A stretch of DNA of 54,552 bases from Bacteroidota bacterium (GTDB lineage: Bacteria > Bacteroidota > Ignavibacteria > Kryptoniales > JAKASW01): positions 1 to 54,552 of the forward strand of contig JAKAGT010000030.1 of NCBI GenBank assembly GCA_021825585.1, in the 5' to 3' direction. Made by a program: the position numbers and the translations under genes. The notes beneath the pieces are model-generated. The model did not search any database and was not told the origin of the DNA. It worked only from the letters and a program-made list of their open reading frames with translations. This document shows positions 2,199 to 2,580 of the stretch, piece by piece; the stretch's first letter is position 1; every line of letters begins with the position of its first letter.

Positions 2199-2270
2199 TG
2201 GGGCGTAGCCAAGTGGTAAGGCAGCGGCCTTTGGAGCCGCCATTCGGAGGTTCGAGTCCTCCCGCCCCAG
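2199..2270 (+). tRNA. tRNA-Gln(UUG)
   Basis: A complete cloverleaf: acceptor strands TGGGGCG (2199-2205) and CGCCCCA (2263-2269), D arm with AAGTGGTAA loop, anticodon stem GCGGC/GCCGC around loop CTTTGGA, five-base variable loop, and T arm GGAGG-TTCGAGT-CCTCC. The anticodon is TTG. The weak U1-A72 pair and discriminator G73 are expected glutamine identity elements. The 3' CCA is not encoded. The start codon of the GIY-YIG gene lies only 5 nt after the tRNA end. Confidence 0.97.
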
Positions 2271-2275
2271 CGAAA

Positions 2276-2524
2276 ATGAGTTTTTATGTCTATGTCCTGA
2301 AGAGTGGTAAGACTGGGAAGTTTTACATTGGCCAGACGAACGATCTTGAGGACAGATACAGAAGACACAATGAAGGTAGAGTCAAATCGACGAAGGCCGG
2401 TGTGCCGTGGTCGGTTGTGTACTTTGAGAAATATGAGACGAGAGCTGAGGCGATGAGACGCGAGCATGAGTTGAAGAGCCTGAAAGGAAACGAGAGATTC
2501 CGAAGAATTGTCGGAGTCTCGTAA
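2276..2524 (+). CDS. Small GIY-YIG nuclease wedged behind tRNA-Gln
   Basis: A single-domain GIY-YIG nuclease of 82 residues, in the UPF0213/YhbQ-like size class. Visible motifs are YVY (residues 4-6), YIG (17-19), the catalytic-type arginine of LEDRYRRHN (about 27) with His31, and a REHELK segment near 62-67 carrying the likely metal-binding glutamate. I chose ATG 2276, because a longer reading would translate the tRNA itself. There is no real Shine-Dalgarno, so translation may be inefficient or rely on the processed tRNA transcript. The stop codon (2522-2524) runs directly into the partial tRNA copy, so the gene fills the whole space between the two tRNA segments. The family is certain; its target and biological role are not known. 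Confidence 0.9.
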   Translation: MSFYVYVLKSGKTGKFYIGQTNDLEDRYRRHNEGRVKSTKAGVPWSVVYFEKYETRAEAMRREHELKSLKGNERFRRIVGVS

Positions 2525-2580
2525 GCGGTAAGGCATCCCGCATAGCGGGACATTCGGAGGTTCGAGTCCTCCCGCCCCAG
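2523..2580 (+). pseudogene. Partial tRNA-Gln copy with replaced anticodon arm
   Basis: It has the D-loop-like segment (2523-2535), then TCCCGC-ATA-GCGGGA (2536-2550), a perfect 6-bp stem with a 3-nt loop where the anticodon arm should be, and then an exact copy of the tRNA-Gln variable loop, T arm and 3' acceptor strand. The 5' acceptor strand and a pairing D stem are absent, so it cannot fold as a functional tRNA. It overlaps the stop of the GIY-YIG gene by 2 nt and ends 27 bp before prs. Confidence 0.75.

Follow-up and report, generated by a model that had tools for sequence, protein, structure and literature searches.

Small genes for GIY-YIG endonucleases lie beside many different tRNA genes across the phylum Bacteroidota, typically enclosed between an intact tRNA gene and a partial, hairpin-broken copy of the same tRNA, and they make up a large family that is undescribed in the open-access literature searched. 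The units have a defined anatomy in two mirror-image geometries, their loci exist as empty, filled and decayed alleles with differing numbers of tandem copies, and their enzymes are under purifying selection and fall into lineages tied to tRNA identity. Judging from these sequence patterns, each unit is probably a minimal, single-gene mobile element of a homing type that parasitises tRNA genes.

The unit from which the analysis started lies between a tRNA-Gln gene and prs in the window, by which we mean the whole 54,552-nt stretch analysed (contig JAKAGT010000030.1 of assembly GCA_021825585.1). Its features are as follows:

2199..2270, plus strand: intact tRNA-Gln(UUG) with no encoded CCA (ARAGORN, Rfam); left half of the arrangement and presumed target and homology arm
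2271..2580, plus strand: 310-bp repeated unit of linker, GIY-YIG gene and hairpin-broken partial tRNA copy (31-bp direct repeat, spacing 310)
2276..2524, plus strand: GIY-YIG endonuclease gene, 82 aa, ATG to TAA (Pfam PF01541)
2523..2535, plus strand: D-arm segment of the partial tRNA copy, 12/13 identical to 2211–2223
2536..2550, plus strand: hairpin TCCCGCATAGCGGGA, found in the copy in place of the anticodon arm (2224–2240)
2551..2581, plus strand: partial tRNA copy comprising variable loop, T arm, 3' acceptor strand and discriminator, 31/31 identical to 2241–2271
2608..3540, plus strand: prs (ribose-phosphate pyrophosphokinase), a host gene at the flank by which the orthologous locus is recognised in relatives

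ARAGORN called a single tRNA-Gln(TTG) in the window, at 2199–2271, and Rfam matched a tRNA at 2199–2270 (67 bits) and nothing else there. The GIY-YIG gene begins 5 nt behind the tRNA gene, its 82-aa product matches PF01541 in Pfam with an E value of 1.2e-15, and the last 2 nt of its stop codon (2522–2524) are at the same time the first 2 nt of the tRNA copy. The preliminary description of this DNA had recognised the succession of tRNA-Gln, GIY-YIG gene and partial tRNA copy, which ARAGORN, Rfam, Pfam and a repeat comparison confirmed, and its 12/13 match between the D segments (2211–2223 and 2523–2535) was recovered as well. The perfect copy that it had put at 30 bp is indeed perfect and has a length of 31 nt (2241–2271 = 2551–2581, spacing 310), and the anticodon arm that it had found lacking is absent; the arm is, however, not simply missing, as its 17 nt (2224–2240) have been exchanged for the 15-nt hairpin TCCCGCATAGCGGGA (2536–2550), exactly at the arm's place. 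A group I intron with a homing endonuclease was rejected as an explanation because the tRNA is intact and Rfam shows the tRNA alone, and an integrase-driven tRNA island was rejected because there is no site-specific recombinase, the GIY-YIG gene being the only recognisable gene of the 310-bp unit. We also discarded the idea that hairpins of the TCCCGCATAGCGGGA type are a common dispersed repeat, given that the window has three TCC..GGA hairpins against 1.7 expected, which does not obviously indicate a genome-wide repeat. A short perfect hairpin, TCCCTTCGGGA, of the type seen as inserts in some broken tRNA copies, lies in an intergenic gap of the window at 13335–13349.

A PF01541 search identified 13 GIY-YIG genes in the genome to which the window belongs (G000), where two further tRNA genes each carry a tandem pair of units, with a unit length of 309 bp at tRNA-Pro(TGG) and 319 bp at tRNA-Arg(CCG); all of these units match the plan of that in the window. 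In these units the gene starts no more than 10 nt behind the tRNA and the unit ends with the 3' part of its own tRNA, broken by a hairpin that lies in the anticodon arm in the Pro copies and in the T-loop in the Arg copies. The Gln, Pro and Arg proteins of this genome are only approximately 42% identical to each other. At a fourth locus, tRNA-Pro(CGG), three tandem 133-bp deletion derivatives are found from which most of the gene is gone; these mini-units (L270, G000:C86, 1577–1975) retain the ends and the hairpin-bearing tRNA copy, and two similar units of approximately 108 bp with the nuclease gene mostly deleted lie behind tRNA-Pro(CGG) in another genome (L271, G007, 1577–1792). Both sets of mini-units are candidates for non-autonomous derivatives.

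The family was found in 31 of 41 relatives and in 239 of the 394 genomes sampled from the phylum (E ≤ 1e-12), many of which are metagenome bins. The loci examined contained 200 distinct genes, and 139 of these have an intact tRNA on the same strand within 250 nt; among those without a nearby tRNA are later units of arrays, relics, genes close to a contig end and genes that belong to other GIY-YIG subfamilies. Among 149 tRNA–gene pairs, 141 have a partial copy of their own tRNA across the gene and the match is weak in the other eight. Keeping one pair per gene resulted in a set of 132 genes from 73 genomes, which cover 19 host families, 27 tRNA species and 15 amino acids. Over these 132 loci the own-side match score has a median of 35.4, compared with a median of 9.2 (95th percentile 15.6) in a control that used a tRNA of a different amino acid and, because the own-tRNA scores are far above this mismatched control, the partial copies are not the product of chance. 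The longest array, five near-identical units of 315 bp, is found in a genome that consists of a single contig and has 20 GIY-YIG matches, ten of which belong to tRNA units, distributed over four tRNA loci.

Two layouts can be distinguished among the 132 genes. In the first, represented by 98 genes and by the unit in the window, an intact tRNA is followed by the gene and the broken copy, and in the second, represented by 34 genes, the order is mirrored, such that a broken copy with the promoter-side flank precedes the gene and the intact tRNA comes last. The tRNA copies in the units are identical or nearly identical to the intact tRNA, and the enzyme reading frame often terminates within tRNA sequence (65/98 in the first layout and 16/34 in the mirror layout). 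The inserts in the broken copies of the first layout (3'-type) are mostly found in the T-loop directly behind GTTC and otherwise in the T-arm/variable region or the anticodon arm, and those of the mirror layout (5'-type) are found mainly in the D-arm (23/29). The insertion is clean, with no tRNA bases lost, in 49 of 74 inserts, and the inserts fold far better than shuffled sequences (median z −3.1). The preliminary description had proposed searching for GIY-YIG genes immediately behind tRNA genes and followed by a partial tRNA copy, and a small tRNA-associated mobile unit, as it proposed, is well supported by the 132 genes in 73 genomes that such a search yielded; the specificity for tRNA-Gln that it assumed did not hold, with 27 tRNA species occupied and mirror units present.

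Features of free-standing GIY-YIG homing endonucleases are present in the family, namely the catalytic residues, purifying selection and, for the Arg, Pro-CGG and Gln loci, the occurrence of alleles both with and without a unit. The catalytic residues Y6, Y17, G19, R27, H31 and E63 are invariant or nearly so in the family alignment and dN/dS is approximately 0.05–0.13 where dS can be computed, values indicating that the enzyme gene is under purifying selection. The predicted structure is a bare GIY-YIG domain (mean pLDDT 94) from which a separate DNA-binding domain is absent. In both a profile search and Foldseek the closest solved structures are UPF0213 and SLX1 (profile E values of 5.9e-17 for 1zg2 and approximately 1e-6 for SLX1 chains), and the homing enzyme I-TevI is more distant. 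These affinities, the lack of a DNA-binding domain and the strong, often double hairpins on the broken copies fit an element built on an SLX1-like, structure-specific nuclease that would recognise extruded cruciforms of tRNA genes or the hairpin itself and move via single-stranded or replication intermediates, in which case the hairpin would not be a protected scar but the end at which the element is active. We regard this as a possible reading, though a tentative one, since hairpin sequences differ between lineages and the tRNA-specific enzyme lineages described later favour recognition of the tRNA gene itself; it is a variant of homing, and both readings could hold in part.

Comparison of orthologous loci, which the preliminary description had suggested as a check, revealed empty sites and variable copy number. 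At the locus of tRNA-Gln and prs no unit is present in the sister-family genomes examined (G013–G017). Within the genus of the window the same locus carries intact units, a tandem pair (G003), a pseudogene with a single stop (G009) and deletion remnants, downstream of which older copies broken by hairpins follow. The Arg locus is filled in two and empty in ten of 12 congeners. At the Pro-CGG locus the downstream gene (reference motif) is 22 nt from the intact tRNA in the empty allele, and occupied alleles have 14 and 26 nt between it and the last broken copy; the nuclease gene is reduced to a stub in three genomes. Because these short spacings are about equal, we place the insertion inside the duplicated part of the tRNA, with the broken copy where the original tRNA end had been. 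A fixed arrangement, according to the preliminary description, would show no empty sites and no other occupied tRNA genes; this pattern was looked for and not found.

Some of the comparisons within the genus have a bearing on transfer. The Arg loci L009 and L287 (G000:C9 and G006:C53) have flanks that are identical over 600/600 bp while prs is 87% identical between the genomes, which may reflect recent transfer or shared bin contamination; the Arg contig of the window's genome could itself be contamination. We do not use the nucleotide identity of this locus as evidence of movement, because 600 bp of flank are identical as well. Between the Gln-locus enzymes of G000 and G006, dS is approximately 1.4 compared with approximately 0.85 in neighbouring genes, a difference that is not decisive for recent transfer, and within the genus these enzymes may have been inherited vertically.

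Copy number differs between near-identical loci, and this difference, together with the tandem units and the deletion mini-units of 133 and approximately 108 bp, is what would be expected from recombination between repeats if a local tandem duplication of a tRNA had trapped a small GIY-YIG gene that unequal recombination then amplified or deleted, with no role for the enzyme in spread. We consider this non-mobile history unlikely, because it leaves unexplained that each of 27 tRNA species has an enzyme lineage of its own, nor does it account for the mirror-image layouts, the set positions of the hairpins, the empty orthologous alleles and the agreement of the enzyme trees with tRNA identity across different host families.

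The correspondence between enzyme and tRNA is apparent from a phylogenetic tree of the 132 proteins that, although it is based on few columns and has many weak forks, requires 33 changes of tRNA amino-acid identity compared with 85 (78–90) in shuffles, and 69 changes of host family compared with 91 in shuffles. The closest relative in another host family is linked to a tRNA for the same amino acid for 102 of the 132 proteins (approximately 20 expected by chance) and to a tRNA with the same anticodon for 75 (9 expected by chance). Target specificity thus appears, from these phylogenetic patterns, to be inherited with the enzyme lineage across host families. The Pro-type protein is 57–70% identical to Pro-linked proteins on contigs labelled Ignavibacteriae, Cyclobacteriaceae and Flammeovirgaceae and 54% identical to that of L230, and this likeness across hosts argues for movement between hosts, although old paralogous lineages could also account for it.

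We propose that, in a homing-type cycle, the GIY-YIG protein, as an SLX1/UPF0213-like catalytic domain only, would cut or open its cognate tRNA gene at a loop and that the break would be repaired from a donor whose intact tRNA provides one arm through its 5' part and whose broken copy provides the second through its tRNA 3' part. Because the intact and the broken tRNA of the donor would serve as the two homology arms, the product in the recipient would be an intact tRNA, the GIY-YIG gene, a hairpin-capped broken tRNA and the native flank, in this order or as its mirror image. The hairpin would mark the presumed position of the break in the displaced copy, which would therefore be neither a functional tRNA nor cut again, and candidate roles for it are those of a scar, a protection and the real substrate of the enzyme. 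The surviving intact tRNA would be open to further rounds, and such repeated hits would explain why arrays grow beside the tRNA and older units decay further out. Expression of the gene would come from read-through from the tRNA promoter. It speaks against homing that the intact tRNA would remain a target, unlike the situation in classical introns and inteins, and that sequence specificity is unexplained because the enzyme has no separate DNA-binding domain.

The position of a gene under purifying selection directly behind a tRNA, and the structured, tRNA-like tail that the broken copy gives to the transcript, would also suit a device useful to the host or a toxin/antidote pair, in which the nuclease acts on tRNA or on tRNA-gene DNA, the broken copy is an RNA decoy, processing signal or regulator and the unit is kept for its benefit and not by homing. 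This is the least probable of the readings considered here, because orthologous loci often show loss, pseudogenes and stubs, the sequence and position of the hairpin vary, the 3'-type broken copy is without a complete acceptor stem, mirror-image units place the copy upstream and the solved relatives of the family are nucleases acting on DNA structures.

Homing-type elements with a similar plan are known from fungal mitochondria, where mobile endonuclease open reading frames (mORFs) are associated with duplicated gene ends in Allomyces atp6 and in Glomus atp6, atp9, cox2 and nad3; mORFs mostly encode LAGLIDADG enzymes, and that of Glomus atp9 carries a GIY-YIG enzyme (PMC3630166). In mORFs, as in the tRNA units, the endonuclease gene has a restored host-gene end on one side and, on the other, the displaced native end next to the native flank, and the spacing at the Pro-CGG locus fits this plan. 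The mORFs differ in that they occupy mitochondrial protein genes and the replaced end is divergent foreign sequence, whereas the units described here are found in tRNA genes of bacterial chromosomes, measure about 300 bp and have identical tRNA copies, hairpin caps, mirror layouts and arrays. SegB of phages T4/T6 is a free-standing GIY-YIG homing endonuclease of a tRNA region (PMC13096335 and references therein) that is implicated in breaks within tRNA-containing sequence and promotes the inheritance of its own region and tandem amplification (PMC13096335). Unlike the tRNA units, SegB is a phage-borne, full-length homing enzyme at one locus with no hairpin-bearing partial tRNA copy, and across a bacterial phylum the units have a separate enzyme lineage for each tRNA identity. 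UPF0213/YhbQ-like proteins and SLX1 share their fold with the enzyme and are its best matches in sequence and structure among solved proteins, but SLX1 is a structure-specific repair nuclease that works with SLX4, and no tRNA-linked unit plan was found for it in the open-access literature searched. Integrative elements that target tRNA genes and have a tyrosine integrase likewise use a tRNA gene as their site and leave a partial tRNA duplication, whereas the units, with a total of 310 bp, have no integrase and no att pair, and a hairpin breaks up their copy. In the open-access literature searched, bacterial GIY-YIG units linked to tRNAs were not found to have been described. For the claim that the units form a distinct class, we see the case as evenly balanced: these would be self-spreading, single-gene units of approximately 300 bp, with a lineage for each tRNA identity, for which an essential tRNA gene is at once the target and the source of built-in homology arms, and which restore one functional tRNA and leave a hairpin at the break position in the displaced copy.

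If the homing reading is correct, the tiny genes annotated as GIY-YIG nucleases beside tRNAs include a phylum-wide selfish element that would be the bacterial equivalent of the endonuclease elements duplicating gene ends in fungal mitochondria and whose units could move between any genomes that share the tRNA gene without shared flanks. It suggests a way for an element to exploit essential, ultra-conserved genes without killing its host, provides a testable model of homing without flanking homology, accounts for broken tRNA copies that turn up unexpectedly when genomes are annotated and makes available dozens of natural nucleases, each with a single tRNA gene as its counterpart.

Spread by phages or plasmids was also considered and was not retained: the Gln protein has seven weak phage matches (35–43% identity), and the Pro protein has no relative on viral contigs and no plasmid match. 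Outside Bacteroidota, a search with one Pro-type protein yielded relatives that are mostly not linked to tRNAs, with L248 and L252 as possible exceptions. In L248, from a Saccharibacteria contig (PXOU01000018.1, approximately 1967–2222), the end of the gene overlaps tRNA-Glu and a repeat with an alignment score of 29 flanks the gene, making it a possible unit outside Bacteroidota. On the minus strand of L062 (G007:C20), a locus at which no intact tRNA was found, four related GIY-YIG genes lie no more than 10 kb apart, amid hairpin-broken fragments similar to the 3' end of a tRNA-Met. Finally, the window's genome encodes a second subfamily of small GIY-YIG proteins that is not linked to tRNAs (L001, L002, L003, L008 and L011, all on contigs other than that of the window) and is possibly another mobile kind; several of its genes are flanked on both sides by palindromic or directly repeated sequence, with a long direct repeat on each side of L003.
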